From: Candidatus Roizmanbacteria bacterium GW2011_GWC1_37_12
Lineage (GTDB): Bacteria > Patescibacteriota > Microgenomatia > UBA1406 > GWC2-37-13
Direction: 5' to 3'
Assembly: GCA_000991135.1 (NCBI GenBank)
Contig: LBST01000006.1
Span: forward strand, 1-46,662
Length of the DNA stretch: 46,662 nt
Both the position numbers and the translations under genes were made by a program. Shown one piece after another: positions 1,113 to 39,086 of this stretch. The notes under the pieces were generated by a model. That model saw only the letters and a list, made by a program, of their open reading frames with translations, was not told the origin of the DNA and made no database searches. The stretch's first letter is position 1, and each line of letters starts with the position of its first letter.

Positions 1113-1751
1113 CTATTTGTCAAGTGTCTTGATTTTCGCTTGAATAATCAGCCTTTTTAGGGTAGTTCCCGGCGGCCAACACGTCATCAGGGTCAAGACT
1201 GACCCTGACTTTGTCAAAGGATCTAAATGCGAAACATCCGAGGCTTCAACCATCTTTTTCTCGCTTACCTCATACACATATTTCTTTTTCTTGTAATACA
1301 TCTCTATCTTGTCTCCTTTTTCCAGCTTATTAAGTAAATAAAAAACAGAGTTATAGCGATTGGCGATGTACCAGTCGACACTGGAGTGGGCAAAGATAAA
1401 AGTGTTACCGGCGTGACCGGGAAAAGCAGTCCCTTTAGCATGGGCGACCCCCTTGGTTAAAGCATACTGATAATCTTTACTGTCATAAGGATCAACATTG
1501 GAAATAACTTTAGCGTTGGCATTAATCTTAGGAATAACAATTCCAAATTCTTCATCAATTGGCTTTATTGGCTTATTGGTTAAATTGGTGCGATTGGTCA
1601 AATTGGTTAAATTATATTTTGTCTCCTGCCAAAGAACTCGATAGAAGCTAAAGAAAAACAAAGCTAATCCTGTTAAAAAGAGAGTAAAACCGATTCTCAA
1701 AAAAATCTTAGACAGTTTGCTTCCTTTTTTTGATGAAGTAGTAGATGCCAT
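1113..1751 (-). CDS. Sortase family transpeptidase
   Basis: A 212-residue membrane-anchored sortase. There is a basic N-terminus, one transmembrane helix at about 18-38, a polar repeat linker (residues 47-60), then the catalytic beta-barrel. The expected active-site residues are all visible: His122 in FIFAHSS, Cys191 in TLMTCWPPGT, and Arg200 in LKRLI. Sortases cut LPxTG-type signals and transfer the protein to an amine acceptor at the cell surface. The first 44 bases overlap the 3' end of the giant surface-protein gene, which carries an LPATG signal and is the obvious substrate. The subclass cannot be fixed by eye; the compact form with a TLxTC motif would fit class D or E. Confidence 0.92.
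   Translation of the reverse strand: MASTTSSKKGSKLSKIFLRIGFTLFLTGLALFFFSFYRVLWQETKYNLTNLTNRTNLTNKPIKPIDEEFGIVIPKINANAKVISNVDPYDSKDYQYALTKGVAHAKGTAFPGHAGNTFIFAHSSVDWYIANRYNSVFYLLNKLEKGDKIEMYYKKKKYVYEVSEKKMVEASDVSHLDPLTKSGSVLTLMTCWPPGTTLKRLIIQAKIKTLDK
1578..1613 (-). repeat. Four 9-base in-frame repeats in the sortase linker
   Basis: Four consecutive 9-base units (AATTTAACC and close variants) encode Asn-Leu-Thr, Asn-Leu-Thr, Asn-Arg-Thr and Asn-Leu-Thr in the stalk between the transmembrane helix and the sortase domain. Because the unit length is a multiple of three, copy-number change would alter stalk length without breaking the frame. Confidence 0.75.
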
Positions 1752-4700
1752 AACCTAATACTGCTACACCGGCGAGAATTAGTAAAGTTAATTTCTTTTT
1801 CTTTGTAACAAAATCGACAACTCCCAAGACAGCTCCCTTTGCTTTATTGGTTTCAATCACCTCTGGTTTGGCTGTCGGAGTGGCTTCTTCGCCTTCCTTG
1901 ACTTCCTCGCCCAAGACTTCTCCGCCTCCTGTGCCTCCGCCAGGCAGCGTCACGCCCTCAACCGGAATTGCCCCACCTTCGGTTGTCATTGTTGATGTCG
2001 TCACAGTCACGGCTGAATCGCCGACCGGTCCAGAAGGATTGCCGGCGCTGTTGAAGGAACGGATCACATAATAATAGGTTTTATTGCAGTCTGGGACAGA
2101 CTCTGTGAATGAACCGTCTGTATTTGGACCTATAGTGATGTCTCCGACTCTGGTAGATCCGTCAAGGTTGAACGAGGTCGAATCCGATCGGTAGACCTCG
2201 ACTCTTGACGTCAATCCATCGTCAGCCGTCTTAAAGGTAATTTTATATTGACACGAAGAAATTTTCTCTTTTTTGTAGTTTGAAGGCGGTGTCGGGTCGC
2301 CTTGAGTGTTGTAACCCACCGAGATTATTCCTTCAGTTTCGCTTGTTGCTGTCTCTGAACCATTGCTGGCTGTGGCATAAAATTGGTAAGTACCGTTGGT
2401 ATTTACGAAGTTAGAAACACCTGTACAATCACCGCTGTTGCCGCCGGCCGAGACTGCGATGTCTGATCCAAACTGGCTATATCCACCGTCTGACGGGCCT
2501 TTTTTGAAACATTTGACGGTTATGGCGGCTGGCGACTCGGAAAGATCCATGACGGTAAAAGTTATATTAAAGTTATTATTTGAAGTCGGGCTTTTTGGTT
2601 GTTCCAAACGGATTATCAGATCTCCGGCAGCTGCTTCAGCTTTAACAGGATAGAATAAAAGACTTAAGGCTAAGATAAGACCGAATAAGGCTTTTTTTAC
2701 GAGGAATCTTTTTCTTTTAAGAATTAAACCTAGACCCATAAAAATTAAGCCCAAAATTGATAATACCGACGCCAATATTACCCAGATGACATTGCCCCCT
2801 GTTGCAGGAAGTGATGTCGAGGCTCCTAAGACTTCTCCGCCGATTTCGAAATTGCCGCCTTGCGTAAGGTTGGCATTGACGTTGACGCTCGAACCGACAA
2901 AGTTAGTCGTTACAAATCCTTCTGGTTGTGCCAAAGCTAAAACTCGGTTATCAAGGACGTCTTTCCCATATGCATAAGCCATATCTTTGTAAAGGCCAGG
3001 GTCAACCGAACTTACTTTGGCTGAATATTTGATGACTATTACATCGTCTGCATCCATGTCTCCCAGGTTATATGTTCCCGGAGAAGCATAATGAGGGTCG
3101 CCAACAATTGCTGTTAGATCGATTGAACCGTTTTTGATGATTGAGATAACGTTTTGGAAGCTGAAGCCATTTGGTAAAAGATCCTTGAGAACAACTCCCA
3201 AAACCTGGCTGTCTAGAGCTTTAACTGTAATAGTATATATAACGGTATCACCTAGACTTTTGTCTCCAGAAGCGTCATTAGACTTTGAGATCTGTAATTC
3301 TGGATTTACTGGCTGATTTCCGATGTAACAGGTAATTTCCTCACCCGCGCCTACTTCAAATCTAAGGCTGTTATTTTCTCCTGTTAATTCTCCATCGAGA
3401 CAAGAGATTTCTGTCTGAATATAACCTGGTTTAAGAGTTTCCGAAAGCTCATAACCGCCCGGTGTGATATCTTCGAACAACGCTTCTCCGTCGACGTTTG
3501 TTGTCTCATTTAGACTTCCTAAAGAGATGTCCCAACCCTCAAGAGTTGATTCGTCTTGGTCAAATTGACCATTCCCGTTGTCGTCTTGGTATTTGACTAC
3601 GGTAACATCAGCTTGTTCCTGGTTACCGAAGTCGCACCTGATACCGCCGCCATCAGTGCTATTTATTTCCCTTGAAGGAATACACGTATTAGGACCGTTG
3701 GGCAACTCTACCGTATGACACGCAGGGCTTGAGGTCTGGGTCCAACCATCCTGGGACTCTTCACAGACGCTATACGTGCCCGGGAACAAGTGTTCAAACC
3801 AATACCAGCCCAGTTCATCACCAGAGTCGGTGAACATAGATTTTTCCCCGTCATCCCATGTTTGATTATCATTTTCATCAATAAATATTCTCCATCCGCC
3901 CAAAAAGTCTTCGCCTTCGTCTCTGGCTCCGTTGCCGTCTAAATCGCTCCATTTTTGGCCATGGATAGCGCCGTTAGGGCTGTTGTAAAAAGTACAAGTA
4001 GTGGTTGAATCTTTTTCAACTTCCAATCCATCAATACTGTCGCTTCCGTCAAAATCTCCACTTTCATTATCACAGATCGCCTCAACGAGATCATAACCGT
4101 CTTGAGTCGTTTCTATAGCCGTATACTCTCCTGTATTAAGTGAAGAAAATGTGACCAAACCATTAGAACCAGTTGTATCGGCCGGCGCATCGGTCGTGTC
4201 TCCAGACCAGCCGTCAACGTCAAACTGCCAAGATTCTCTTTGTGTTTGATCAGTTTCAGTTCCCAAATCACCATCGGCATCAATAATTTTGTGAACAATA
4301 ATTGTTCCGGTATCACGAGTATTGGTTATTGTACAAGTAGTCTCCTGATCTAGATCTAAAACTATTACGTTTCCTTGGACTCCGGTATTATCACAGCTCC
4401 AGTTTCCAGCTGTATAATCTGAAGGACCTGATTCTAATAACCTATAACTTTTACCTGCATCAAGAGGATGGAAATCTGTTGAGTCACCACTGTCAGAGAA
4501 TCCGCAAGCTGGATCAGTGTTGCCAAAAGCACACAAAGTTCGAGCTCTTAATGTCCAATCACCTGGAGTTGAACTTCCTCCTTCGACTACCTTGACTAAT
4601 CTAAGAGTTGGAGCGATATCATCATTTGTTATCGTACAAGTCACCTCTTCATCTAAACCAAGTGTTAGCTTGTTGCCATTAAGAATTCCGTCATCACAGT

Positions 4701-7700
4701 TCCATGAACCAGCTGCATAGCCTGTTGGACCGGATTCAAATAGGGTATAGACAGTACCGGCTAAAAGAGGATGAAATTCAATTGAATCACCGGTATCTGA
4801 AAATCCACAGTCTGGATTGGTATCACCTACAGCACATAGTTTTCTAGCTCTTAGTGTCCAATTACTGGCAACTGCATCTCCACCATCATCATTAGTAACG
4901 TCTTTTACTAATTTCAAAGTCGGAGCAATATCATTGTTCGTTATTGTGCAGGTAGCTGATCCGCCGTTGGGAACGAAAATATCATCACAATTATCGTAAG
5001 TAGTTTCATAACCTGGCGCATCATCTTCAATGATTGTGTAATCTCCTGAATCGACTGTTTCTTCATTCTGTCCGTCGGCTTCAAAAAACACTGAAGGTCC
5101 GTCGTCGACTGTATAAGAAAAATCTTCATTATTTAAATCTCCGCCGTTGTCATTGATCAAAACTTTCACCACTACCAATCTTCCTGTCTGGTCGTCATTG
5201 GTTATCGTGCAGGTTACATCTTCATTAAGTCCTAAAGTCACTGTGCTATCAACCAAGTTTCCACCGTCACAGTTCCAAGACCCTTCTGAATATCCGGAAA
5301 CAGTTGATTCTGATAGATCATAACTAACATTTGCATAGATAGTTTCAAAACTGCCAGAACCACCGAGATTACTGAAATTTCGATCGTCATCTGGCGCATC
5401 AGCATCAGCCGTCAATGTCCAATCATCAGCTATAGCAGACCCACCATTATCAGTAACAACCTCTTTCACCAGCTTTAAAGTCGGAGCGATGTCGTCATTG
5501 GTAATCGTACAAGTGATATTTTCACCCTCATCAGCTGTCACATTACCAGCAAGAACATCTGGACACTCTGGATCACCCGTAATAAAAACAAATTGATATC
5601 CAAAAGAACCAGCTTCATCGACTTCATAAGCTGTATTTGACTCGACTGTTGTTGCGACACCACTTGTTACTGAGTTATTTCCAAGCGAAAGAATAAAGTC
5701 GTCTACTTGAGCATTTCCACCATCATCATTAATAACTTCTTTAATAAGAGTAACTGTTGGAGCAATATCATCATTTGTGATTGTACAAGTAACTGAACCT
5801 CCATTTGGAACAAAGATGTTGTCACAGTTGTCATATGTAGTTACATAACCTGTTTCTGAATCTTCGACAATTGTATAGTTTCCAGAATCAACTAAGGATT
5901 CATTTTGTCCGTCGGACTCGAAAAATACTGAAGATCCGTCATTAACTTTATATGAAAAGTCATCTTTAGTAGCATTTCCACCGTCATCATTGGTTAAAAC
6001 TTTGACCACTATTAATCTTCCTGTTTGGTCATCATTAGTGATCTCACAGGTTTTTGATTCCCCTGGGCCGAGAGTGACATTGCCTTGAGCATCACAATCG
6101 TTGCTCCAACTTGAGGCAGAATATCCTATTAATGTATCTTCGGAAACAACATAAGAGTCAGGATCAACATCGTGTGAACCCCAGGCTGTTTCGACTCCGT
6201 CAATATAAACGTTAAAGTTATCTTCGACTGCGGTTCCGCCATTATCATTGGGCAGGTGTTTAATCAAAGTTAAATTAGCCGTTAACTGACGGTTGGTTAT
6301 ATAAACATTATTTGTATTACCGCTCGTCACCGCTACTTGGCCATCAGGAGTTGATGCATCATCATCAGTAATGGAAACTAAAGCATAACCCGTTGGTAAA
6401 GTATCCTCAGTTACCGTATAGGTTCCCGGAGTTAATTCATCATAAGTGGCATTTGTTCCTTCGGCAACTGTCTTTGGGTCACCATCATTAAGAAGAGCAG
6501 TAAATGTCGTTGAATCAGATACCTCTGTGGTTCCGTCTGGTTTAACGACATTTTTATGAACAATAATAGTGGCATTTTCAAAGTTAACAAAATCGTTGTC
6601 TGTACTTTCTTCACCTGGTGACAAATCAACTTCAATTCCATCGCCTGTTGGGAAAATCTTTGTCCAACCGCCTAGAAGTTGCTCACGAAGCTGGTAAATA
6701 CCAGGAAGTAAGTTTTCGAAAGAGAAGAATCCATTGCTGTCGGTTGTATCTGATTCACCCGTATCTACAAACGCATCAGTAATCCATTTCCAAAGCTCTA
6801 TTACCCAACCTTGAAGTGGATTTTGGGTTCCATCTTCATATTTGTGACCGGAAATTGAACCTCTCTGTGTATTGGTGAATGTACAAGTAACCGTTTCACC
6901 TGCACCAACGTCGATACTCTCGGGTGTCTCTCCCTGATCACAAGTAGCTGAAGTAAGATCCCATCCTGTAGGAACGGTTTCGGAAACAGAGTAAGCACCT
7001 GGTGTTACCTCCTGGTTATTTGGAGTAGCTGAATCAGTCAAGCTAAAGTTAGCATATCCGGACCCTGAAGTAACAAAATCAAAACTCTGATTTGATCCCG
7101 AGGGATCTGTTACTTTGTCAACAATAATATGACCACTGTTAACAGTATTTAATACTGTACAGACAATGTCGTCATCTTCATCAACATCGACGTTTAATGG
7201 ACCAGCTCCACTTTGAGTTAAGGCTGCCCCACCATCAAAAGTTGTTAATCCTCTATCAACACATGAAATAGACGTCGCATAATCACTAAGATTTGTGCTT
7301 GGATCAGTACATGCTGTTTCACCGACTGTATGAGTCGCACCCGGATTTGCGCTTGTACCGGCACCAACTGTTACCTGACCAGTCGTTCCAGTATCACCCA
7401 CACAAGAAGCTTCATCGCTACCATTAACCTGTAAATTAAACCTTCCTGGATCGCTGCCTGGATTTAGATCTTTAACAACTTCTATATTCGCTTCAAAGGG
7501 GACTGTAATGGGGACTTCAAAACCATCTTGACAGTTACATTTTGAAGGAGATCCTGGTACAGCTTCTGAAGGAACAGAACAAGCAGTATTATCATTTTGT
7601 GCCCAGCTCGTACAATATGGAAGGTTCAGAAAATTATCACCATCAGGATCTTCACACTGAACAGTCATTGTAATAACTGGATTTACTGGAGCAGCGCTAC

Positions 7701-9099
7701 TTATATCACCACAGGCGTTTCCGTCAAAATTATAGTTAGGGGGCACCGGCGAATTAGCCAAAGTTGATACCGAACAAGAACCAGTTAAGGCGCTAGATTG
7801 ACCTTCCCCAGCAAAGTAAAGACCTATATTATATCGTTCTGTGGCTGTTGATTGAACATTCCAAGTTGCCGTAAAAGAAACTGTATCGCCTGGGAACTGA
7901 CAACCGTCATCTAGAATATTGACATCTGTAACATTGGCAATTGAAACATCGTTAGCAGTACAGTTTAGTCCAAAATCAACCGCGTCTTGAACACAACTAC
8001 CAATAACTGTTTGTACAGATGAAGGAGTTGAATACAAGATTGTATCACTATCTGCTTTTGTTTCTGAACCATGTTTTGTTTCAACGCAGACTTTACGTGT
8101 GTCATCACTTCCTACTTCTAAAACCCAAGATTTCGTAGCCGTATTTCCACCTAGATCAGATATCGCTTCCCAAGCAGTCCAAGAACCTGTGCCTAGGTTA
8201 CTACAGTTGTTTCCTGTTGTTGTGTCATTTGCATATCTTGCTTGAGTTGGGTCAGTGCTACCAGTCCATGAAATATTTAAAGTAACATTAAGTGAGTTTG
8301 TCGTAGCATCATCATTGTTTATTTTTACTTCCATTCCAGAATGATCTAAAAATGTAGTTGTGGCGACGATAAATCCTGAAGAATCATATAGTTCAACCGT
8401 GTAGTTTGGCCTGTAAGTACCATCAAGCTGATAACTATAGGTAAAACTACCGTTTTCATCAGTTGTTATCTGGTAGGAGACATCAACTGCTGGTTCGTCT
8501 GACGAATAGATCCTCAAAGTATATTGCGTATTCGGAGCAAAACCATATCCGGTAATAACAACTACTTCTGTTGGCGCGTAATCGGCTTTGTCTGTTGCTA
8601 GACAACCGTTTAACGAGTCTGCTCGGCAAGAATAAGATTCTACAACTGTCGTATCAACGTGGCCGTTCGGAGTCATTAAAGGTTCTGGGGTCGGGGAAGT
8701 CTGAACATCCATTCCTGGCGCAGGACTGGTCGCCTCCGCTGAAGTTTCAACCGAGTTTGACTCGGCTTCGGCGCCCGAAGGCGGAGAGGGGACAGAGGGC
8801 GCTTCGGTTGGCTCTAAAGTCGGTTCGACTGCCGGACTGGTTTCCTCAATAGGTGTCACCTCGACTGTTGGAGTAACGCTAACTGCTTCCGTCGGGGTAA
8901 CATCTTGAGTAGGGCTAACCTCAACAGTTGGTGTCGGCGTTGATTCATCCGGTGTCGGAGTAATTGTTTCTTCAGCAGGAGGAGGTGTGACGTCTTGAGC
9001 TTTGACAATAGATAAGGATACAAAAGGAGCTAAGTTATTAAAAACTAAGTTTACAGAAAGAATTATTGAGATGATTCTTTCCCCTAATTTGTTTTTCAT
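1708..9099 (-). CDS. Giant cell-surface repeat protein with internal LPATG signal
   Basis: A 2463-residue exported protein. In order: signal peptide (1-35, ending VKAQ); a Pro/Thr/Glu-rich stalk (about 36-150); an Ig-like region containing DKADYAPTEVVVITGYGF; a Cys-containing region; about thirteen prealbumin-fold (SpaA/Cna-B or SdrD-B-like) repeats at about 655-1931; a DUF11-like domain from about 1932; then LPATG at 2097-2101 followed by a hydrophobic helix and KRKR. This is a complete sortase signal, yet the frame continues for about 360 residues. The extension has a second signal-like segment (about 2135-2158, ending VKAEAAA), an FN3-like secreted part, and a final membrane helix with a KKRK tail. 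It heads an operon with the sortase and the metalloprotease. It is either a natural fusion of two surface proteins or two genes joined by a frame change in an A7 tract. The role is probably adhesion or a stalk (inference). Confidence 0.9.
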   Translation of the reverse strand: MKNKLGERIISIILSVNLVFNNLAPFVSLSIVKAQDVTPPPAEETITPTPDESTPTPTVEVSPTQDVTPTEAVSVTPTVEVTPIEETSPAVEPTLEPTEAPSVPSPPSGAEAESNSVETSAEATSPAPGMDVQTSPTPEPLMTPNGHVDTTVVESYSCRADSLNGCLATDKADYAPTEVVVITGYGFAPNTQYTLRIYSSDEPAVDVSYQITTDENGSFTYSYQLDGTYRPNYTVELYDSSGFIVATTTFLDHSGMEVKINNDDATTNSLNVTLNISWTGSTDPTQARYANDTTTGNNCSNLGTGSWTAWEAISDLGGNTATKSWVLEVGSDDTRKVCVETKHGSETKADSDTILYSTPSSVQTVIGSCVQDAVDFGLNCTANDVSIANVTDVNILDDGCQFPGDTVSFTATWNVQSTATERYNIGLYFAGEGQSSALTGSCSVSTLANSPVPPNYNFDGNACGDISSAAPVNPVITMTVQCEDPDGDNFLNLPYCTSWAQNDNTACSVPSEAVPGSPSKCNCQDGFEVPITVPFEANIEVVKDLNPGSDPGRFNLQVNGSDEASCVGDTGTTGQVTVGAGTSANPGATHTVGETACTDPSTNLSDYATSISCVDRGLTTFDGGAALTQSGAGPLNVDVDEDDDIVCTVLNTVNSGHIIVDKVTDPSGSNQSFDFVTSGSGYANFSLTDSATPNNQEVTPGAYSVSETVPTGWDLTSATCDQGETPESIDVGAGETVTCTFTNTQRGSISGHKYEDGTQNPLQGWVIELWKWITDAFVDTGESDTTDSNGFFSFENLLPGIYQLREQLLGGWTKIFPTGDGIEVDLSPGEESTDNDFVNFENATIIVHKNVVKPDGTTEVSDSTTFTALLNDGDPKTVAEGTNATYDELTPGTYTVTEDTLPTGYALVSITDDDASTPDGQVAVTSGNTNNVYITNRQLTANLTLIKHLPNDNGGTAVEDNFNVYIDGVETAWGSHDVDPDSYVVSEDTLIGYSASSWSNDCDAQGNVTLGPGESKTCEITNDDQTGRLIVVKVLTNDDGGNATKDDFSYKVNDGSSVFFESDGQNESLVDSGNYTIVEDSETGYVTTYDNCDNIFVPNGGSVTCTITNDDIAPTVTLIKEVINDDGGNAQVDDFILSLGNNSVTSGVATTVESNTAYEVDEAGSFGYQFVFITGDPECPDVLAGNVTADEGENITCTITNDDIAPTLKLVKEVVTDNGGSAIADDWTLTADADAPDDDRNFSNLGGSGSFETIYANVSYDLSESTVSGYSEGSWNCDGGNLVDSTVTLGLNEDVTCTITNDDQTGRLVVVKVLINDNGGDLNNEDFSYTVDDGPSVFFEADGQNEETVDSGDYTIIEDDAPGYETTYDNCDDIFVPNGGSATCTITNNDIAPTLKLVKDVTNDDGGDAVASNWTLRARKLCAVGDTNPDCGFSDTGDSIEFHPLLAGTVYTLFESGPTGYAAGSWNCDDGILNGNKLTLGLDEEVTCTITNDDIAPTLRLVKVVEGGSSTPGDWTLRARTLCAFGNTDPACGFSDSGDSTDFHPLDAGKSYRLLESGPSDYTAGNWSCDNTGVQGNVIVLDLDQETTCTITNTRDTGTIIVHKIIDADGDLGTETDQTQRESWQFDVDGWSGDTTDAPADTTGSNGLVTFSSLNTGEYTAIETTQDGYDLVEAICDNESGDFDGSDSIDGLEVEKDSTTTCTFYNSPNGAIHGQKWSDLDGNGARDEGEDFLGGWRIFIDENDNQTWDDGEKSMFTDSGDELGWYWFEHLFPGTYSVCEESQDGWTQTSSPACHTVELPNGPNTCIPSREINSTDGGGIRCDFGNQEQADVTVVKYQDDNGNGQFDQDESTLEGWDISLGSLNETTNVDGEALFEDITPGGYELSETLKPGYIQTEISCLDGELTGENNSLRFEVGAGEEITCYIGNQPVNPELQISKSNDASGDKSLGDTVIYTITVKALDSQVLGVVLKDLLPNGFSFQNVISIIKNGSIDLTAIVGDPHYASPGTYNLGDMDADDVIVIKYSAKVSSVDPGLYKDMAYAYGKDVLDNRVLALAQPEGFVTTNFVGSSVNVNANLTQGGNFEIGGEVLGASTSLPATGGNVIWVILASVLSILGLIFMGLGLILKRKRFLVKKALFGLILALSLLFYPVKAEAAAGDLIIRLEQPKSPTSNNNFNITFTVMDLSESPAAITVKCFKKGPSDGGYSQFGSDIAVSAGGNSGDCTGVSNFVNTNGTYQFYATASNGSETATSETEGIISVGYNTQGDPTPPSNYKKEKISSCQYKITFKTADDGLTSRVEVYRSDSTSFNLDGSTRVGDITIGPNTDGSFTESVPDCNKTYYYVIRSFNSAGNPSGPVGDSAVTVTTSTMTTEGGAIPVEGVTLPGGGTGGGEVLGEEVKEGEEATPTAKPEVIETNKAKGAVLGVVDFVTKKKKLTLLILAGVAVLGYGIYYFIKKRKQTV
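2692..2811 (-). other. Internal sortase signal followed by A7 tract and second signal-like segment
   Basis: The LPATG codons occupy 2797-2811. Downstream in the gene are a hydrophobic helix, the KRKR stop-transfer sequence and then an A7 homopolymer at 2692-2698, immediately before a new hydrophobic segment. Removing one A would stop the protein eight codons past the tract, and adding one would also give an early stop. Either change would produce a normal-length LPxTG protein. Confidence 0.8.
3307..7137 (-). repeat. Tandem prealbumin-fold domain array inside the giant surface protein
   Basis: Residues 655-1931 contain about thirteen units of roughly 80-110 residues. Most start with a beta-strand holding a lysine (for example LKLVKEV), often followed by NDNGG, carry an acidic pair near the middle (SES, VED, FES), and end with TCTITNDD. 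Lysine, glutamate and asparagine in these positions match the pattern of self-formed isopeptide bonds in SpaA/Cna-B domains. Several pairs of units (starting TGRLIVVKV and TGRLVVVKV) are very alike in protein but differ at many synonymous sites, so the duplication is not recent. Confidence 0.8.
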
Positions 9100-12050: not shown

Positions 12051-12488
12051 TTAAAATCCTCTGGCTTTTCGTTTTTCATAGTCAATTTTTTGTCTCCATG
12101 CCGATTTCCAATTGACCCCGTAGGTACCAGGACCCCTTAAATCAAGGTAAAGCTTTTCTAAAAAATCTTTTACTTTTTCATTACCAACAATTCCTTTTAA
12201 GGCATTTTTAATAGCTTTGCCTTTTAACATAATCGAATGAAATTTAGCGATTGTTGTTGAGGAAACCTTGAGTACGTCTGAAATATTTGAATAGTCAATC
12301 TTTTTCATAAGTAAATAAATTATTGCTACTCTTTTAGCAATCATTATCCTTTCTGTTGGAGATAAGAGTTCGTTTATTATTGAAGAGAATTCCTCTTCTT
12401 CATCCATACAATTAACTACCTCAAACATTAAATAATAAAGTTTCTCTAAAACCGCATCCTCAACCGGGAAACGGGAAATTCTAGTCAT
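12051..12488 (-). CDS. TrpR-superfamily (YerC-like) repressor, paralog 1
   Basis: A 145-residue all-helical DNA-binding protein. The core LLSPTERIMIAKRVAIIYLLMKK followed by the HTH IDYSNISDVLKVSSTTIAKF is the Trp-repressor/YerC fold. A tail ending in a WKSAW motif and KRKARGF extends past the usual TrpR end. The ATG at 12488 is preferred over the GTG at 12497. The second paralog aligns from this Met (M.R.SRF), and the -10 box would overlap the upstream codons. Perfect or near-perfect palindromes lie upstream and downstream, one across its own -10 region, so autorepression is likely. The ligand is unknown; no tryptophan genes are nearby. Confidence 0.85.
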   Translation of the reverse strand: MTRISRFPVEDAVLEKLYYLMFEVVNCMDEEEEFSSIINELLSPTERIMIAKRVAIIYLLMKKIDYSNISDVLKVSSTTIAKFHSIMLKGKAIKNALKGIVGNEKVKDFLEKLYLDLRGPGTYGVNWKSAWRQKIDYEKRKARGF

Positions 12489-12493
12489 ATAAG

Positions 12494-12515
12494 TCACTTT
12501 ATTTAATTAAAGAGA
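12494..12515. promoter_or_regulatory. Operator overlapping the TrpR-like gene 1 promoter
   Basis: The sequence CTTTATTTAATTAAAG (12497-12512) differs by one base from the perfect core of the two flanking palindromes. It covers the -10 box and much of the spacer, so a bound repressor would block RNA polymerase. Confidence 0.7.
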
Positions 12516-17474: not shown

Positions 17475-17625
17475 ATAAACAGTTAAACAGTTAAAACCTA
17501 AACGGTTAAAAAAACTATAAAACAAAACTTAAAAACATTTAAACTATTTTCATATGTTTAATAGTTTAACCTTTAATAGTTTTTTTAAGGTTTAGCCGTT
17601 TAAGGTTTAACAGTTTTTAAAGAGG
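17475..17625. repeat. Long imperfect inverted repeat upstream of ileS
   Basis: The left arm carries ACAGTTAAAACCTAAACGG and TTAAAAAAACTAT. The right arm carries ATAGTTTTTTTAA, GGTTTAGCCGTTTAAGG and TTAACAGTT. The whole could fold into a long AT-rich hairpin. A related sequence fills 36700-36827 upstream of murA, and a shorter one lies at 42103-42128. No gene is visible here. Confidence 0.6.
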
Positions 17626-17629
17626 TTGT

Positions 17630-17764
17630 CTATGGACTATAACCTACAAATCCACCCCCATCTTCAGGATCTTCAGGATTAGGTAATACACCGTTCAAGC
17701 ATAATCGATAGTCTCTTTTTAAAATGGGAGCATGGAAACTATAAATCCATTCTTTTCCCTCATC
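17630..17764 (-). pseudogene. Possible gene remnant ending in NPEDPEDGGGFVGYSP
   Basis: On the minus strand an open stretch of 44 codons with no start codon ends at TAG (17632-17630). The translation (EWIYSFHAPILKRDYRLCLN, then GVLPNPEDPEDGGGF) looks protein-like. Part of it is repeated at 22654-22692, where the same frame reads LYCLNVVLLNPEDPERLL before a stop. It may be the 3' remnant of a decayed gene, or a regulatory repeat that happens to be open. The evidence does not decide. Confidence 0.3.
17663..17701 (-). repeat. 39-base module-flanking repeat, left copy
   Basis: It matches the right copy at 22654-22692 at 35 of 39 positions. On the minus strand it contains the tandem AATCCTGAAGATCCTGAA. 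Both copies lie about 20-30 bases upstream of a TATAGT-type element and a -35-like box on the minus strand. Confidence 0.75.
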
Positions 17765-17801
17765 TTAGTAATTTCGTTTTTCTTTTTTATTTATCGTTAA
17801 T

Positions 17802-18008
17802 TCAAATGGAGGGAATTGGATCAAAAGTATTATTTCCAACAGCTTTTAACAAATCGAATTGTGTAAGATCTCTTGGTTTTTTCCTAAGTGATAGCGCTAA
17901 CTTAGAAAGTTGAATTAAATATGCATCTGCGAATCTATGAAACTTTAAGTCTTCGCTAACCTCAAAATGGTCACCTATAGATTCTCCTGTACGTATAGCG
18001 GCAGCCAT
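17802..18008 (-). CDS. Small hypothetical protein, 68 residues
   Basis: The frame encodes MAAAIRTGESIGDHFEVSED followed by a helical, positively charged middle (LSKLALSLRKKPRD) and a hydrophilic end. The ATG at 18008 has GGAGG two bases upstream, which is close for a ribosome site. An in-frame TTG at 18017 is the alternative start. No family is recognised. It stands divergent from the ATPase/winged-helix gene at 18094 and might belong to that module, or be a decayed gene with the remnant downstream. Confidence 0.35.
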   Translation of the reverse strand: MAAAIRTGESIGDHFEVSEDLKFHRFADAYLIQLSKLALSLRKKPRDLTQFDLLKAVGNNTFDPIPSI

Positions 18009-18032
18009 CGCCTCCAAATATTACAACTGAAC

Positions 18033-18061
18033 TTGATTTTTACTGTATTGAGTTATAGAAT
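18033..18061 (+). promoter_or_regulatory. Promoter of the ATPase/winged-helix gene
   Basis: TTGATT, a 17-base spacer and TAGAAT lie 32 bases upstream of the ATG at 18094. The leader between them carries the AATTCTGAAAATCCTGAA copy. Confidence 0.55.
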
Positions 18062-18076
18062 ATAAAATCCTTACCT

Positions 18077-18094
18077 AATTCTGAAAATCCTGAA
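18077..18094 (+). promoter_or_regulatory. Third copy of the AATCCTGAA tandem motif at the regulator's start codon
   Basis: AATTCTGAAAATCCTGAA matches the tandem core of the 39-base repeats at 16 of 18 positions and runs into the ATG. Tandem direct repeats of this size are the kind of site that OmpR/PhoB-type winged helices bind, so autoregulation is a reasonable inference. Confidence 0.5.
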
Positions 18095-19410
18095 TGAAAA
18101 ACCAGAATTCGGTTACATTGCCGGAGGACTTCTTAGCTAAATTTGCCAGCGATATTTTTGTTCCTTTAAAAAGAGGAGAATGCGTTTCCTGTATGTTTGC
18201 TGCTGGCGGTGGAAAAAGAACCATCTTTAACTATCTTCTTTCCAAAGAAACTATCTTAAAAAAGATTTTTAAAGAAATCTATAAAAAAACCTTATTTGTC
18301 TATATTGATCCAAATGAAATCTTAAATATTTCGACCGAAGCCTATCTTCACCTTATTCTTGAAAATCTAGTTTTTAAAATGAAACAAAAAAAGATTAAAA
18401 CTGTTACAGAAACGATTTCTAAAAATCCATTGGTTCTTATAAAAAAGAATCTTGAAAATCTCGTTCTAAAAGAATACCATATCATATTTATTCTTAATGA
18501 TTTTGAATTTACTCTTTCTTTACCTTTAAGTATTTATTTGAACTTAGAGTCGATTATGTCTATAGATAAGTCAAGAATAGTCTATCTATTTTTATCAACG
18601 ATTAATCTTTTTGATGAGACGGTGCTTCGAAATCTTCAAAATCTTAAACATGCTATATCGCGAAACGTCAGATTCTTTTCTCTATTAAATCAAGATGCGG
18701 CAAATTATTTAATCGACCGATTTCGCGAAAAAACTAAGACAAAAATCACCCATAGAGTAAAAGATGTCCTATTCGAATTATGCGGAGGTCACCCTCAGTT
18801 ATTAAAATACTCTTTTAATAATCTACGTCAGCAAGGTCAGGAATTTCTTGAAGATTATAGAAAATCAACTTCATACCTCATCAGTCACTATCAATTAAAT
18901 ATTGTTTGTGCCGATATTTGGAACTTTCTGTCCGAGAAAGAAAAAGAAGCGATTATTTCTGTTGTTACAACCGGAAATTTTTTACCTTCTCTAAAGGAAT
19001 CTGTTGACTATCTTATAAATTTGGGACTCATTAAAAAAATTACCGATCAAAAATATCAATTATTCGGAATCCTCTTTGAACAATTTATTAAAAATAAACT
19101 TCCGAAGCATAAGTTAATATTTAATAGTAATAATAAGAAACTTTATTATGGCGGACAAAGTTGTGAAGATAAGTTTACCTATCAAGAGTTTAAACTCCTT
19201 ACGTATTTTATCACTCATGAAAATGAATTGGTCACTCGAGATCAAGTTGCCGAGGCAATTTGGGGAAGGCATTATCTTGAAAAATATTCAGACTGGTCTA
19301 TCGATAAAAGTATCTCGATATTAAGAAAAAAACTTGATGCTTTGGGTTTTCGCTCAGAATATCTTACGACTTTAAAGAAACGTGGGTTCAGTTTTTCTAA
19401 TCCTGAATAA
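18094..19410 (+). CDS. ATPase with C-terminal OmpR/PhoB-type winged helix
   Basis: A 438-residue cytoplasmic regulator. The N-terminal half looks like a STAND/AAA ATPase: a P-loop-like AAGGGKRT (36-43), a Walker B-like IIFILNDFE (130-138), and a later GGHPQLLKYSFNNL that matches the sensor/lid region of such ATPases. The P-loop is degenerate, with GGGKRT in place of GxGKT/S. Residues about 345-438 form a Trans_reg_C winged helix (FTYQEFKLLTYFITHENELV, IWG, SIDKSISILRKKL, TTLKKRGFSF), the DNA-binding part of OmpR/PhoB proteins. There is no receiver domain. It would bind tandem direct repeats. The 3' end overlaps the convergent 1065-residue gene by 14 bases, and the pair shares repeat motifs. 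Confidence 0.75.
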   Translation: MKNQNSVTLPEDFLAKFASDIFVPLKRGECVSCMFAAGGGKRTIFNYLLSKETILKKIFKEIYKKTLFVYIDPNEILNISTEAYLHLILENLVFKMKQKKIKTVTETISKNPLVLIKKNLENLVLKEYHIIFILNDFEFTLSLPLSIYLNLESIMSIDKSRIVYLFLSTINLFDETVLRNLQNLKHAISRNVRFFSLLNQDAANYLIDRFREKTKTKITHRVKDVLFELCGGHPQLLKYSFNNLRQQGQEFLEDYRKSTSYLISHYQLNIVCADIWNFLSEKEKEAIISVVTTGNFLPSLKESVDYLINLGLIKKITDQKYQLFGILFEQFIKNKLPKHKLIFNSNNKKLYYGGQSCEDKFTYQEFKLLTYFITHENELVTRDQVAEAIWGRHYLEKYSDWSIDKSISILRKKLDALGFRSEYLTTLKKRGFSFSNPE

Positions 19411-22400
19411 GATTATGAATTTTCTCTGCAAGCGCTTTATTTATAGATCTAAAATCAATCGAGGCAAATCTCTCATCAAGTTTCCTTAATTTTCTTGCTA
19501 ATTCAGGATTTTTGGAATTATTGATCAATCTCCACTCTTCTTCACGACACCAAATCGGTCTAAGAAGCATAAAAGCTAATGCCGCATTGTCTTCTACCAA
19601 TTCAAACAAAAAGTCATAAAAAAGCCTTCTTCCGGGTATCCCATGATAATATCTTTTTTCAGGAGGATTATCCAGACTATTGACATATTTAAAAACTTTT
19701 GCTTTTAGTCGTTTTAATACATCAGGATTTTCTAAAAGTTTTCCGATTTCGGGAAACCAGCCTTTTTCAGCAAAAACTCCGAAAGGATATACATTTATGT
19801 TTGTGGCAAAGAGTTCTTTGTTCCCTTTGATAAAGGATTCACCTTCAGGAAGTACTCTAAGAATAGATGCTAAGTCGCCGTCAAAAGCTATCCCCAAGTC
19901 CGTCAATATTGAGATGCCGTTTTTCAGCCTTTGAGATCTATAACCTATAATATAGTCATTTTTCCTTGCTTCCTCTGCAATGGGTTGAATTACTTCGTAG
20001 GTAAAAAATTCCTGTGTTTCTTTAGCCAGTCTGTTTAATGTATCTATATCATCTAATTGCTCCTCTGTAATAGGTCTATCATCTAGACTTACTATCGGGT
20101 GCTTTCCGCCATAGCCCCAGTCTCGGAAATCATGCCTGAAAGCATACAAAGTTTGACTAAATGAACTGCTTAAAAATCGTCTTTTAGAAAACGGGTAGTA
20201 AGCCACAACAAAAGGATTGTCTAACCAGTATTGATTTAAAAGTCTGTGTTTTGATAAATTCTCATAACCTCGAAATGGAGTCATACCCATACCGGATATC
20301 AAGGTCCTTTTCTCGCCATTTTTATGAAAAGTGTACGGCTCCAATTTTAAGACAATGTTTTCTATTGATGCATCTTCCATCATATGGATCAGCAATGGAT
20401 TATCGGCTTTATATTTTCCTCCTCTAACCGGATTAAAAATCTGCATCCATGATCTGTTTTTTTTGCCTATGTTACCTTTTGTTCCTATATCCAAGTAGTT
20501 GAATTCATCGCGCCTGCTGCTGGTTTTCTTTTTTATGGAATACTCTTTTCCTGGAAATAATCTTTTTAAGTATCTTTCCATCTCATCAGGACCGGGGCCG
20601 TTCACAGCTACTATATCAATATCGCTGTTCGGGAGATAATTTTCAGCATTTTCATCCTTACCTAATTTCGTTAACCAGTCCCTGATGGAAGAAAAACGGT
20701 TTGCCTTAATATCCAGAAATTCCTTTCTTCTGAATCTGGTAGTCTTTATACCGGTAATATCTTCCGCTCTCCCTAAAACAATAAACATCGACATATCTGG
20801 AAACCTGTTCAAAAGTGCCAAAATAATTTTACCCCTATCAGTAATGTCCCACGAAGTTGATGCTTCCGGCGACTCTTTCAATCTATGGGGTGCGCTCAAG
20901 CCGAACATTTCTTCTGCCATATAGAATCTATAATCAAAATACTTCCCAATTCCTCTTTTGTCCATCAGTTTTTGAACTTTTAACCTGATAATCTTTTCAA
21001 GTCCAGGGATATTGCGTTCATTAGGTTGACTGGGTAAATTAAGCTCATCCATTACCTCTTGAAAACAATCGCTTATTACCTTTAACACCTCTGTTTCCCT
21101 TTTTTTATCCAGAAGCTGAATTAAATCTCTATACCCAGCTTTGTACAAATCTCTGGCATAAACCCTAAGCTCTTTAGGCAACCATTCAAAAGAGGGAAAT
21201 TCTTTAACTTCCGGCATTTCTACAGGCTCTTTTTTCAAAAATAAAGGAGTATTTATGTCTATCATTTCCAAAAGTTGATCAAGCAAACCAAATGCAGTTT
21301 TAAAAGAACTGACATTTCTTTTTTCATCTTGGACTAATAACTCTCTGATGTTCTTTAGGATAAATTTCTTTTCTATTCTGCCTTCTTTTGGAATTGTAGT
21401 ATACCGCCATCTTTTTAGCTGTCGCGGTACAGATTTTGGCTTTGAAATATCTATTTTTCTATCTCTTGTTAAATCAAGATCTATTCTAATAAGACTAAGA
21501 ATTTCATTCTCCGACTTAGTTAAGAGTAGGTTCAATAATTTATCTTTGTCGTTTTTAAATCGTTTTTCAAACAACGAGTAAATGTGATTTTCTGTTCCCT
21601 GCACCCACGGTGATCCGCTGAAAAAAAGTCTTAATACCATATGCATTAAGTAAACTTGTGCTATGAATTCGCCGTCAAAGATCATTTTGAGTTCCTTTTT
21701 TAATCCGCCGTTAACTTTTTTGTCAACAATCGCTAGTTTAACGACATTCACCGATATAAGATCGGTAATTTTTTTCCTTTGATTATCGGTTTCCGGCAAA
21801 TAGAAAGGGGTGCCTTTTAACAACGCATTAGTAACTCCCAAGAGACTCTGAACAACTAAGTTTATCTTTTCCTCAAAAGGCATGTTTTCATCGATCTTGA
21901 ATATCCGTATCAATTCGGTGAAATCTCTGACTGTGTATGATAACCAGTCAAACGATGCTGCCTCGTTTCCCTTTTTTAATAATTGACCAAGAAGCGTCCT
22001 CCCGGAAATTGCATCTTCGGTTATTTGACGAAGTTTTTCTATCTTAATACCAACTCTTTCATAATAATTTTGCGTTTCCGTATTAAAAACCATCTCTCTA
22101 AATCTATCATAATTCGGGTCACCTCTTAAGACACCAACCAACACCTCATCTTCGTGGTATTTTTTTCCTCCTATTTCTAACCTTTTGTGAAAAACGCCTT
22201 GGAGCGGTAAGGTGAAAAAATCATGCAGTCTTTCTACTTCTGAACTATATAGTATTGTTTCTTTAGGCGTCAGATCATATTCTTTTATTAACTCTTTGAA
22301 AAGAACGGGTTGTTTCCTACATAAATGAAGAAGAGTATTGGAAGATAATTCCATCACATCACGGATATGGTCACCCCTTGAAAAATCATATCTCAAAACT

Positions 22401-22594
22401 TTTTCGGCAATCGGACTGACGTTATTCATGCGAAATAATCTTTCCATTGACTTAAGTTTTAGGCTTTCTAAAGTAGGTAAAGCTTTTTCTAGAATAATAT
22501 TGCCTGCATTTTTAAGCTTTAAACCTGAAGCTGCAAAAGAAATTTTATTAGAGAGGTGACCGTGCCAATCCGATGACTTAAATAATTCAACCAT
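19397..22594 (-). CDS. Large protein of unknown function with nucleotidyltransferase-like DxD motif
   Basis: A 1065-residue soluble protein without signal peptide or membrane helices. I do not recognise the family. It is mostly helical to about residue 560. The middle contains LPNSDIDIVAVNG with Asp658 and Asp660, the Dx[DE] pattern of Pol-beta-type nucleotidyltransferases. A further acidic residue follows in FNYLDIGTKG as a possible third carboxylate. The usual GS motif just upstream is not evident, so the call is tentative. Past this lie unusual conserved-looking blocks (FRDWGYGGKHPIVSLDDRP, RYYHGIPGRRLFYDF). It has its own promoter with the repeat motif upstream, and it converges with the ATPase/winged-helix gene. 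No hint of a wall or ribosome role is visible. Confidence 0.6.
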   Translation of the reverse strand: MVELFKSSDWHGHLSNKISFAASGLKLKNAGNIILEKALPTLESLKLKSMERLFRMNNVSPIAEKVLRYDFSRGDHIRDVMELSSNTLLHLCRKQPVLFKELIKEYDLTPKETILYSSEVERLHDFFTLPLQGVFHKRLEIGGKKYHEDEVLVGVLRGDPNYDRFREMVFNTETQNYYERVGIKIEKLRQITEDAISGRTLLGQLLKKGNEAASFDWLSYTVRDFTELIRIFKIDENMPFEEKINLVVQSLLGVTNALLKGTPFYLPETDNQRKKITDLISVNVVKLAIVDKKVNGGLKKELKMIFDGEFIAQVYLMHMVLRLFFSGSPWVQGTENHIYSLFEKRFKNDKDKLLNLLLTKSENEILSLIRIDLDLTRDRKIDISKPKSVPRQLKRWRYTTIPKEGRIEKKFILKNIRELLVQDEKRNVSSFKTAFGLLDQLLEMIDINTPLFLKKEPVEMPEVKEFPSFEWLPKELRVYARDLYKAGYRDLIQLLDKKRETEVLKVISDCFQEVMDELNLPSQPNERNIPGLEKIIRLKVQKLMDKRGIGKYFDYRFYMAEEMFGLSAPHRLKESPEASTSWDITDRGKIILALLNRFPDMSMFIVLGRAEDITGIKTTRFRRKEFLDIKANRFSSIRDWLTKLGKDENAENYLPNSDIDIVAVNGPGPDEMERYLKRLFPGKEYSIKKKTSSRRDEFNYLDIGTKGNIGKKNRSWMQIFNPVRGGKYKADNPLLIHMMEDASIENIVLKLEPYTFHKNGEKRTLISGMGMTPFRGYENLSKHRLLNQYWLDNPFVVAYYPFSKRRFLSSSFSQTLYAFRHDFRDWGYGGKHPIVSLDDRPITEEQLDDIDTLNRLAKETQEFFTYEVIQPIAEEARKNDYIIGYRSQRLKNGISILTDLGIAFDGDLASILRVLPEGESFIKGNKELFATNINVYPFGVFAEKGWFPEIGKLLENPDVLKRLKAKVFKYVNSLDNPPEKRYYHGIPGRRLFYDFLFELVEDNAALAFMLLRPIWCREEEWRLINNSKNPELARKLRKLDERFASIDFRSINKALAEKIHNLIQD

Positions 22595-22605
22595 TATAAG
22601 GCCTG

Positions 22606-22634
22606 ATTTTATAATTTTTCTCTCTATTATTCAA
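22606..22634 (-). promoter_or_regulatory. Promoter of the 1065-residue protein gene
   Basis: On the minus strand TTGAAT (22634-22629), a 17-base spacer and TAAAAT (22611-22606) end 11 bases before the ATG. TAGCCTATAG precedes the -35, resembling the dispersed TAGCGTATAGT element. Confidence 0.65.
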
Positions 22635-22653
22635 CTATAGGCTATAGTAACCT

Positions 22654-22692
22654 TTCAGGATCTTCAGGATTGAGTAATACAACATTCAAGCA
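22654..22692 (-). repeat. 39-base module-flanking repeat, right copy
   Basis: It is identical to the left copy at 35 of 39 positions. Its tandem core AATCCTGAAGATCCTGAA starts 20 bases upstream of the -35 of the 1065-residue gene, a typical activator position. Confidence 0.75.
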
Positions 22693-22908
22693 GTATAAGT
22701 TTTCTTGATGTAAATTGTCTTTATATGATAGTAGTTTATACAACTTTTTTTATAATTTACGGCCTGATAGTGTTTTGCTTGTTAAAAGGTCCGACCGATT
22801 CCGACTAAAATGAATAAATATCAACTGCAAATTTTTTTGGTAGGCCTTCAGCCTTATTATTTTATTTTGTTTTCTATCCTAGACTTATTTCTATTCTAAC
22901 GATCTAAC

Positions 22909-36684: not shown

Positions 36685-36697
36685 AATTAAATCTTAA

Positions 36698-36827
36698 ACT
36701 GTTAAACAGTTAAAACCTAAAAAAACTTATTAAACATTAAAACCTTAAACATTAAACAAAATGTTTTGTTTAATACTTAACCGTTTAATAGTTTTTTTAA
36801 CTGTTTAAGTTTTAATATTTAACTGTT
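36698..36827. repeat. AT-rich imperfect hairpin between murCB and murA
   Basis: The core TAAACAAAA-TG-TTTTGTTTA is a perfect 9-base stem. Both arms extend with TTAAACAGTTAAAACC- and GTTTAAGTTTTAATATT-like sequences related to those upstream of ileS. No gene is visible, and no clear T-run terminator follows on either strand. Confidence 0.6.
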
Positions 36828-39086
36828 TTATATTACTATTACTTCTTCTTCCAACTCTATGTCGAATTTTTCTTTAACCTTATTCTTTATTATACCCAAC
36901 AGTTTAATAAGGTCTTTACTCTTGCCTTTGCCTTTGTTGATGATAAAATTGGCGTGAATTGGTGAGACAAAATAATCTCCAACAGCATAACCTTTTAATC
37001 CTACCTTATCAATTAAATATCCAGCAGATATTTTTCCTGGGTTTCTGAAAAAACAACCGGATGAAGCAATTCCAAACGGCTGGGTTTTCTTTCTATATAA
37101 AAGGGCCCAATCGGCTTTTTCTTGTAATATCTTAGCGTTGGATTTTTTGAGTTCAAAAATGCCTTCGAGGACGATCTCTTTGGTTTTTTGCAAGATAGAA
37201 TAGTCATAAGCAAATTTGAAATAATCTCTATTAACCTTTTTAACTTCTCCGCGATTGTTGACAAGATACGCATAGACTAAGCTGTCGCCAAAGTAGATCG
37301 GAGGTTTTGTCCATTTCGAATTCATGTAAATTGCTCCACCGACCGTCCCTGGCAAACCCTTATGATACTCAAATCCCTCCCACCCGGCAGCAATTGATTT
37401 TGCGACCAGCAAAGAAACCGGGTATCCTGAAGACACAGAAATGGTAATTTTGTTTTTGCTTTCTTTAAGAATCTTCAAATCTAAATAATTATTTTTTACT
37501 ATCAATCCTTCTATTTTTTCTTTTATGATTGCCAAATTACTTCCCCCGCCTAACATAAATAGAGGCAGTTTGTTTTTTAAACAATATTTTTTCGCCTCGA
37601 TTAAATCACCTCTTGTCCTCGCTTCCAAAAAATACTCCGCTTTTACTTGATTTCTTAAAGTTAGATAATGTGATAAGTCTTTGTTTTTTTCAATCCGTAA
37701 TCCGTAATTCGTTAATCCGTTAATTGTCTTGATAATTTTGTCTTTTAATTTATAAACATCCCCTGCCCCCATCGTAAAAATTACATCGCCTTTTTTTACA
37801 AATTTTTCCAACCGATTAATCAACTGTACGCTCGATTCTACATAATAAAGATTTTTTTTGCCTTTGACAATATCTTGTGAGTCGATCTTAAACTGACGAC
37901 TGTTTTCTCTTGCTGAAGCAAAAATTGGAAGGATAAATCCTATATCTGCTGATGATAAACCCTCTTTAAATTTATTTAACAAGAAGTTTGTTCTGGAATA
38001 AGTGTGAGGTTGGAAAATAATTATTATTCGTCTACCACCAAATCTATCGCGGGTTGATTTAATCGTTGCTTCGATTTCCGCTGGATGATGGGCATAGTCA
38101 TCGAAAAGATAGGTGTCATTATTTTTGTAAACTAATTCAAATCGCCTTTGGGCACCTTTAAAACCCAATAATGCTTTTTTAATTTTTCCCGCTGTAAAAC
38201 CTAACTGTAATAATTGAACGATAACTGCAGCTGCATTGGAAATGTTATGTTTACCAAACAAAGAAATTTTAAAACTGTCCGTTCCTTTAATACTAAATAC
38301 TGAACCATCTTTGTCTATTTTCCAATTAACTATTTGATAATCTGCTTTTTCTGAAAAACCATAAGTAATAATTCTCCTAGACTTTAGTGTATTAATAGAC
38401 TGTAGTATTTTCGTATCGTCAATATTCAAAATTAACTTTTTCTCACCAAAAAATTTGACAAACGCTTTTCTAGTTTCTTCAATGTTTTTGTAGACGTCTG
38501 GATGATCAAAATCAATATTAGTACAAATAATCCAGTCGGGGTTTAATTTGAAAAACTTTGGCGTTTTATCACTTGGTGGATTAATTCCATACTCATCCGC
38601 TTCGATGACAAAATATTTTTTTTCTTGGTAATCTGCTCCCTGATAATCAGTAAAAAAAGGAACACCAACAAAATAAGAAGGTTTGGCGTTAAGTTTATTC
38701 AACGCATAACTTAATAAAGAAGCAGTTGTTGTCTTTCCGTGACAGCCAGCAACAGCAATCTTGGTCTCAAATCCAAGCATCAATTCACCCAATAAACCAG
38801 CCTGGGAAATAACATTTACTTTTCTTTTCTTTGCCTTAATAATAAGAGGATTACTCAACCCTTGATGAGCCGCAGAGTAAACCATTAGATCGATATTTTT
38901 AGGAAGATCCTTAAAACCCACCTTCCAGGTAATCTTATTATCTTTAAGAAGCTTATCAGTAATAAATTCTTCTTCCACATCGCATCCTGTGACGTTTTTG
39001 CCCATTTTCTTCAATACCACTCCCAAATTCGCCATCGCCACACCCTTTATGCCGACAAAAAATATATTTTTAGCCTGTTTTAACAT
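36828..39086 (-). CDS. murCB: MurC-MurB fusion protein
   Basis: A 752-residue fusion of two murein enzymes. Residues 1-about 450 are UDP-MurNAc:L-alanine ligase: IKGVAMANLGVVL, ATP loop AGCHGKTTTASLL (about 111-123), ADEYGINPPS, IDFDHPDVYKN, and DDYAHHPAEIEATI. After a linker at about 450-470 comes UDP-enolpyruvyl-GlcNAc reductase: FMLGGGSNLAI near 513, YHKGLPGTVGGAIYMNS, and the active-site serine in ASSGCFFRNPG near 675. A C-terminal Glu-rich end (ELEEEVIVI) supplies the usual acidic residue. MurB acts just before MurC in the pathway, so the fusion would couple consecutive steps. The linker is encoded by a repeat-like sequence (37691-37727). Confidence 0.95.
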   Translation of the reverse strand: MLKQAKNIFFVGIKGVAMANLGVVLKKMGKNVTGCDVEEEFITDKLLKDNKITWKVGFKDLPKNIDLMVYSAAHQGLSNPLIIKAKKRKVNVISQAGLLGELMLGFETKIAVAGCHGKTTTASLLSYALNKLNAKPSYFVGVPFFTDYQGADYQEKKYFVIEADEYGINPPSDKTPKFFKLNPDWIICTNIDFDHPDVYKNIEETRKAFVKFFGEKKLILNIDDTKILQSINTLKSRRIITYGFSEKADYQIVNWKIDKDGSVFSIKGTDSFKISLFGKHNISNAAAVIVQLLQLGFTAGKIKKALLGFKGAQRRFELVYKNNDTYLFDDYAHHPAEIEATIKSTRDRFGGRRIIIIFQPHTYSRTNFLLNKFKEGLSSADIGFILPIFASARENSRQFKIDSQDIVKGKKNLYYVESSVQLINRLEKFVKKGDVIFTMGAGDVYKLKDKIIKTINGLTNYGLRIEKNKDLSHYLTLRNQVKAEYFLEARTRGDLIEAKKYCLKNKLPLFMLGGGSNLAIIKEKIEGLIVKNNYLDLKILKESKNKITISVSSGYPVSLLVAKSIAAGWEGFEYHKGLPGTVGGAIYMNSKWTKPPIYFGDSLVYAYLVNNRGEVKKVNRDYFKFAYDYSILQKTKEIVLEGIFELKKSNAKILQEKADWALLYRKKTQPFGIASSGCFFRNPGKISAGYLIDKVGLKGYAVGDYFVSPIHANFIINKGKGKSKDLIKLLGIIKNKVKEKFDIELEEEVIVI
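37691..37727 (-). repeat. Repeat-like linker sequence at the MurC-MurB junction
   Basis: Variants of AATCCGTAATCCGTAATTCG and GTTAATCCGTTAATTG encode NGLTNYGLRIEK, the link between the two enzyme domains. The periodic sequence resembles other AT-rich insertions in this window. Confidence 0.55.

Follow-up and report, generated by a model that had tools for sequence, protein, structure and literature searches.

A putative self-regulated module in Candidatus Roizmanbacteria pairs a STAND-like winged-helix regulator with an exchangeable giant protein

The window, a stretch of 46,662 nucleotides from contig LBST01000006.1 of Candidatus Roizmanbacteria bacterium GW2011_GWC1_37_12, contains two intact convergent open reading frames, one on the forward strand (18094–19410) and one on the reverse strand (19397–22594), whose 3′ ends overlap by 14 bases, exactly as the initial annotation had placed them. 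The first encodes the regulator P0001 (438 amino acids), and the second encodes the large partner P0002 (1065 amino acids). Their neighbors are ileS, a CNNM-type transporter gene, and ftsZ, and Rfam and tRNA searches found no RNA genes in the module. A promoter-like sequence, assigned by consensus match only, precedes the regulator (TTGATT-17-TAGAAT, 18033–18061, forward strand), and another precedes the large gene (TTGAAT-17-TAAAAT, 22606–22634, reverse strand). The latter begins 19 bp downstream of a 39-bp element (22654–22692, reverse strand), so placed that the element lies upstream of the −35-like box. The other outer copy of the element is on the ileS side (17663–17701, reverse strand), 233 bp from ileS and followed by no good promoter. 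Additionally, a partial inner copy (18071–18094, forward strand) lies between the −10-like box and the start codon of the regulator and is a candidate autoregulatory site. Two further features lie between the regulator and ileS. One is an open frame of 72 codons (17802–18020, reverse strand) with protein-like sequence, perhaps a gene remnant, which has no relative in the 82 other genomes of the order. The other, situated between the module and ileS, is one copy of a palindromic element of approximately 140 bp, present in the window at 17478–17622 and 36694–36829 (fold z-score −4.2). Approximately 20 copies of it are dispersed over the genome of 1 Mb, a pattern resembling that of miniature inverted-repeat elements.

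The C-terminal end of P0001 is formed by an OmpR winged helix (Pfam PF00486, 7e-15, residues 361–434), and this domain (Trans_reg_C) is present in 41 of 41 members of the regulator family. In Pfam, P0001 matches neither BTA nor any C-terminal repeat-sensor family (TPR, LRR, WD40), and an AAA+ fold takes the place of the receiver domain found in two-component OmpR response regulators. This AAA+/STAND-like core covers approximately residues 10–335 and has a degenerate P-loop. In the AlphaFold model, computed from eight sequences with a mean pLDDT of 89.7, residues 2–360 match archaeal AAA+ ATPases, ORC/Cdc6, CED-4, and plant NLRs by Foldseek and VIA-align. The best structural matches, over residues 2–334, are PABY2304 (2qen, VIA Z 18.6) and SSO1545 (2fna, Z 16.9), to which P0001 is only approximately 10–12% identical and from which it differs in its additional OmpR winged helix and the absence of Walker A. 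The AAA+ core and following domains of CED-4 and plant NLRs also align with P0001 (Z approximately 16–17), and MalT, a STAND protein, is among the Foldseek matches; in contrast to all of these, P0001 has neither a repeat sensor nor a canonical nucleotide-binding motif. The modeled arrangement, an AAA+/NOD core followed by a winged-helix-type domain, is a STAND-type architecture. The canonical Walker A motif GxxxxGK[ST] occurs in 0 of 41 family regulators of the order, P0001 having AAGGGKRT at this position; we therefore call P0001 STAND-like rather than a STAND ATPase. With its P-loop lost, the regulator is unlikely to hydrolyze ATP in the ordinary way. Collectively, the degenerate P-loop and the OmpR/PhoB-type winged helix proposed in the initial annotation were both confirmed, and structure prediction supports the STAND-like ATPase fold.

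Among known systems, P0001 resembles AfsR and the large SARPs, which likewise join a STAND-type ATPase to an OmpR-type winged helix in a transcription switch and recognize direct repeats in DNA that adjoin or overlap the −35 region (PMC10936776). In AfsR, ATP binding relieves inhibition (PMC10936776). In contrast to these proteins, in which the winged helix is N-terminal, that of P0001 is C-terminal, and P0001 lacks the BTA domain, the TPR sensor, and the canonical P-loop.

The large partner yielded nothing above the cut-off in Pfam, NCBIfam, PADLOC, PHROGs, or PDB sequences. Its halves are neighboring separate genes in genome G001 (444 and 751 amino acids), from which we conclude that P0002 is a fusion of an N-module and a C-module; genome G013 carries the C-module alone (773 amino acids). 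The N-module (residues 1–455; 21230–22594, reverse strand) is 37% identical to the product of L039:11121–12455 in G001 and has no Pfam match and no recognizable family. The C-module contains a nucleotidyltransferase (NTase)-like core at approximately residues 559–743 (20366–20920, reverse strand), with GRA at residues 608–610, D658-x-D660, and D702. GRA and both aspartates of the DxD motif are invariant in the three homologues, the third acid is D, D, or E, and a long insert accompanies the GRA where NTases have GS/GG before DxD. A model of the C-module from three sequences was poor overall (pLDDT 44.7). With this low-confidence model, the top Foldseek matches were RelP, SAS1, Cid1, and OAS1 (E 0.02–0.14, none below 0.001); RelP and SAS1 lead at E 0.02, and a Pfam RelA_SpoT match is absent. 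The VIA list for the same low-confidence model is almost wholly of NTase fold (Z 5.7–7.7, approximately residues 559–743) and includes GLD-2, Cid1, CutA, CdnB, CCA enzymes, TdT, and cGAS. The DxD motif and the third acid are as in Pol β-type NTases (GLD-2/Cid1, CutA, CD-NTase, CCA enzyme, RelA/SpoT synthetases), and the low-confidence model suggests a similar core topology, but P0002 has no sequence-level match to them and is 1065 residues long with an N-module of no recognizable family. P0002, described at the outset as being of unknown family, indeed belongs to no database family, but motifs and modeling indicate that its C-module is probably an NTase.

Two known NTase-containing systems do not fit the module. 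In HEPN/MNT toxin–antitoxin systems a small MNT protein stands beside a HEPN protein, whereas P0002 has 1065 residues and Pfam matched HEPN in neither gene. For CBASS, no PADLOC model matches P0001 or P0002, and the neighbors are ileS, the CNNM-type transporter gene, and ftsZ. In the literature collection searched, no paper ties Roizmanbacteria to nucleotidyltransferases. Separately, the C-module protein of G001 (L039:8832–11087) has two extra C-terminal winged-helix domains (HTH_24 and others), which suggests that this partner may itself bind DNA.

The two full copies of the 39-bp element, which start at 17663 and 22654, differ from each other at only four positions (35 of 39 identical); between Markov shuffles of the two intergenic regions (60 trials), the best 39-mer match averaged 24 and never exceeded 28. 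No third match of this kind occurs in the genome, which has 994,505 bases. The partial copy at 18071–18094 matches in reverse complement at 22 of 24 positions and ends on the A of the regulator ATG. Both the near-identical repeats and the partial repeat at the start codon, noted previously, are therefore real features of the locus. The consensus of the element is TGCTTGAnnGnTATATTACCTAATCCTGAAGATTCTGAA, with 18 of 39 columns invariant across 11 full copies from six loci. It contains tandem TCCTGAA half-sites, 9 bp apart at this locus; the tandem direct repeats, TCCTGAAGATCCTGAA, are candidate OmpR/PhoB-type sites. For comparison, AfsR and other OmpR-fold activators of the SARP type recognize repeats with a spacing of 11 bp (PMC10936776). 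Seven of seven regulator orthologues carry a leader copy (CCTTACCnAATTCTGAAAATCCTGATG), degenerate in L039; it is a short form situated between the −10-like box and the ATG, and by inspection the orthologue leaders show −35/−10-like sequences at the same position. Recurrence at orthologous regulators supports the earlier suggestion that the repeats resemble winged-helix binding sites. One strand of the repeats can be read as protein (…NPEDPE…), and we dropped the idea that they are coding remnants, their bases being conserved at promoters and leaders.

The placement of the full copies is also informative. Five of them are followed, after 4–20 bp, by a sigma-70-like promoter with a score of 9/12 or more, for which P is 0.074 per random 70-mer. 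In the window this promoter is that of the large gene; in G013 the promoters are those of the C-module operon and of the regulator, and in both L040 and L041 it is that of ileS. Upstream of the C-module operon of L036, the layout is like that of the large gene in the window, with the element followed by a promoter-like sequence. Counterparts of the outer copy on the ileS side are found 22–50 bp upstream of ileS in L037, L040, and L041. Other copies abut the regulator at its 3′ end, antisense to it and with no promoter (L037:10247, L038:9058, L040:8131, L041:8540), and these are not explained by a pure operator model. A pattern search of 83 genomes gave 15 matches, 14 of them at regulator loci; the 15th is within the chance level, because a reversed control pattern gives five.

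The module occupies a defined chromosomal slot. The regulator is found between ftsZ and ileS in five genomes, among them that of the window, and in seven genomes of the same genus without an orthologue, ftsZ is followed by ileS across a gap of approximately 17–97 bp that contains no element. These empty sites, with the two genes adjacent and no repeat, identify the module as an accessory unit inserted at a constant position between two essential genes. The adjacency of ftsZ and ileS in genomes without the module, together with the same orientation of the outer-end copies in the window, L037, L040, and L041 and the promoterless 3′-end copies, might instead mean that the 39-bp copies are the ends of a mobile cassette, either recombination sites or homology arms, with the regulator and its partner as cargo. 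We consider this unlikely. The element is absent from the empty sites and from the order's other genomes that lack a regulator orthologue, so that there is no attB, and attachment sites as such were rejected for the same lack of any copy at empty sites. Moreover, the module has no recombinase, the copies of L036 are inverted in orientation, the regulator leader of every orthologue holds a third copy, promoters are among the places where copies sit, and the tandem half-sites fit OmpR binding. A further and quite improbable reading is that the exchangeable cassette captures an essential gene, ileS being cut off from the cell-division cluster and given an element-linked promoter in several genomes. 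If true, a cell that lost the regulator would run short of isoleucyl-tRNA synthetase, and different giant NTase-like effectors would be swapped in behind one switch and its sites.

Relatives of the C-module were found in three of the 83 genomes of the order, adjoining a regulator orthologue at all three loci; a single-sequence search of the remaining genomes in a phylum sample of 380 gave none, and the module proteins have no relative in phage, plasmid, or viral collections. The C-module gene is convergent with the regulator in the window and G013 and on the same strand in G001, and the three loci span two chromosomal contexts and two gene orders. The named contigs belong to Candidatus Roizmanbacteria and other Patescibacteria. 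Of seven close regulator orthologues, three have a P0002-type partner, two have another giant protein of approximately 1020 amino acids that is found nowhere else in the order, and two have no large partner. Because the P0002-type loci do not form one clade in the regulator tree, partners must have been replaced or lost. Profile comparison between the different giant partners gave nothing significant, except for L069 with a 479-amino-acid group. The predicted co-occurrence thus holds in one direction: the C-module always adjoins the regulator, in two contexts, while four of the seven regulators lack a P0002-type partner. Since the C-module occurs only beside the regulator, the notion of a self-contained pair is supported.

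The frequent occurrence of the regulator without a P0002-type partner is what could be expected of chance neighbors with no functional link. Adjacency at three of three loci in two unrelated contexts with different gene orders, and the element shared by the loci, make such an explanation hardly credible. It is likewise very improbable that P0002 is a diverged housekeeping enzyme, such as a GlnE-, poly(A)-, or CCA-type NTase, standing beside a local regulator. Large NTase proteins with housekeeping roles do exist; nevertheless, this one is present in three of 83 genomes of the order, matches no family, and in close relatives is either missing or has a different protein in its place, and such a patchy distribution disfavors a housekeeping role.

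To place the pair in its wider family, approximately 50 further regulator loci were read, inside and outside the order. Within the order, most regulators abut large hypervariable proteins without Pfam matches, and some adjoin deaminases or known enzymes. Some genomes have several regulator copies. A DxD-type motif was present in 15 of 40 large open reading frames adjoining regulators and in six of 86 others (p = 5e-5), with the pattern chosen after reading the sequences and kinship among these related loci uncorrected. For this pattern there was no enrichment outside the order (3/18 vs 3/43, p = 0.35); there, the partners in L059, L122, L123, and L130 show textbook-like NTase motifs by eye, and other family members adjoin genes of other kinds. 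As a broad claim from these sequences, the regulator family appears repeatedly, though not always, to partner NTase-like giants in Roizmanbacteria. The distant regulators of the order have tandem CTTGAC-n-YCTGAC sequences in their own promoters, often 11–12 bp apart (20 observed vs 1–2 expected; 15 at regulator genes), and the element is absent from the promoters of their convergent partners. Several individual loci were recorded in the survey. The genome of the window has a second regulator of the family at L042:7375–11064 (G000:C9), convergent and overlapping with an unrelated 837-amino-acid protein, and this pair recurs in L044 and in L074. Cytidine/dCMP-type deaminases lie beside distant regulators or next to their giant partner (L062:7483–8271, L067:2637–3380), and AbiEii-like nucleotidyltransferase genes, recognized by eye, are near two regulator loci (L036:5402–6058, L042:6079–6549). 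In other orders, the neighbors of the family's regulators are large gene sets found again from genome to genome, and some of them show signal-peptide-like starts (L124–L128, L132, L135).

The gene pairing, the predicted regulator fold, the conservation and position of the element, the insertion, and the partner exchange are each backed by sequence comparison or modeling. From these we infer DNA binding, activation and repression, NTase catalysis, a signal, and a biological role as a conflict or stress effector. We give an even chance to the reading that the two genes form a self-regulated module, in which a STAND-like switch acts on the 39-bp element and the output protein is most likely an NTase. 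In such a module, P0001 would bind the element through the tandem TCCTGAA half-sites. At the site immediately upstream of the −35 box it would activate the large gene, whereas at the site between the −10 box and the start codon of its own gene it would hold down its own expression. P0002 would be the output, an NTase that might move a nucleotide onto a target or make a nucleotide signal, and the module might thereby answer some stress or conflict. Against this reading count the poor C-module model, the lack of significant profile matches among the different giant partners, the DxD enrichment that did not recur outside the order, the promoterless 3′-end copies, and the convergent partners of distant regulators, whose promoters lack the element.

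A stress or defense response had been raised as a possibility in the initial annotation, and nothing specific supports either. In a defense or growth-arrest system, the regulator would sense an invader or stress and induce a toxic NTase. One conserved switch with patchy, hypervariable, exchangeable large proteins, the STAND-like fold, the several regulator copies in some genomes, the deaminase genes adjoining some regulators, and the AbiEii-like genes seen by eye near two loci are all consistent with such a role. BrxR (WYL) regulators form a conserved family beside varied phage-defense systems and have their own local sites (PMC9122601), and the likeness to them lies in one conserved regulator family next to exchangeable effectors. 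However, BrxR belongs to an unrelated protein family, its sites are inverted whereas those here are tandem, and defense was shown in the BrxR case. No PADLOC match scored credibly, relatives are absent from phage, plasmid, and viral collections, and the locus neighbors are cell-division and translation genes. A defense role is therefore a tentative possibility, somewhat doubtful on present evidence.

A switch gene and a giant NTase-like partner with their own 39-base control sites are undescribed in the collections searched. Relatives keep the switch and sites and swap or lose the giant partner, which gives the module the appearance of a self-contained, exchangeable response system. Candidate-phylum bacteria have genomes of approximately 1 Mb, and few of their regulatory or conflict systems have been described. 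A family of ATPase-fold switches that have lost the P-loop, with recognizable DNA sites and recurrent neighbors that are huge, rapidly changing, and probably transfer nucleotides, provides a handle on proteins that databases cannot place. Furthermore, the conserved element makes the proposed regulation testable in a heterologous host, with no need to grow the organism itself.

Two other features of the window were recorded. Small paralogous proteins (n = 2) that are 49% identical are encoded at 12051–12497 and 39238–39675, and a 2463-codon open reading frame with a signal-like N-terminus spans 1708–9099.
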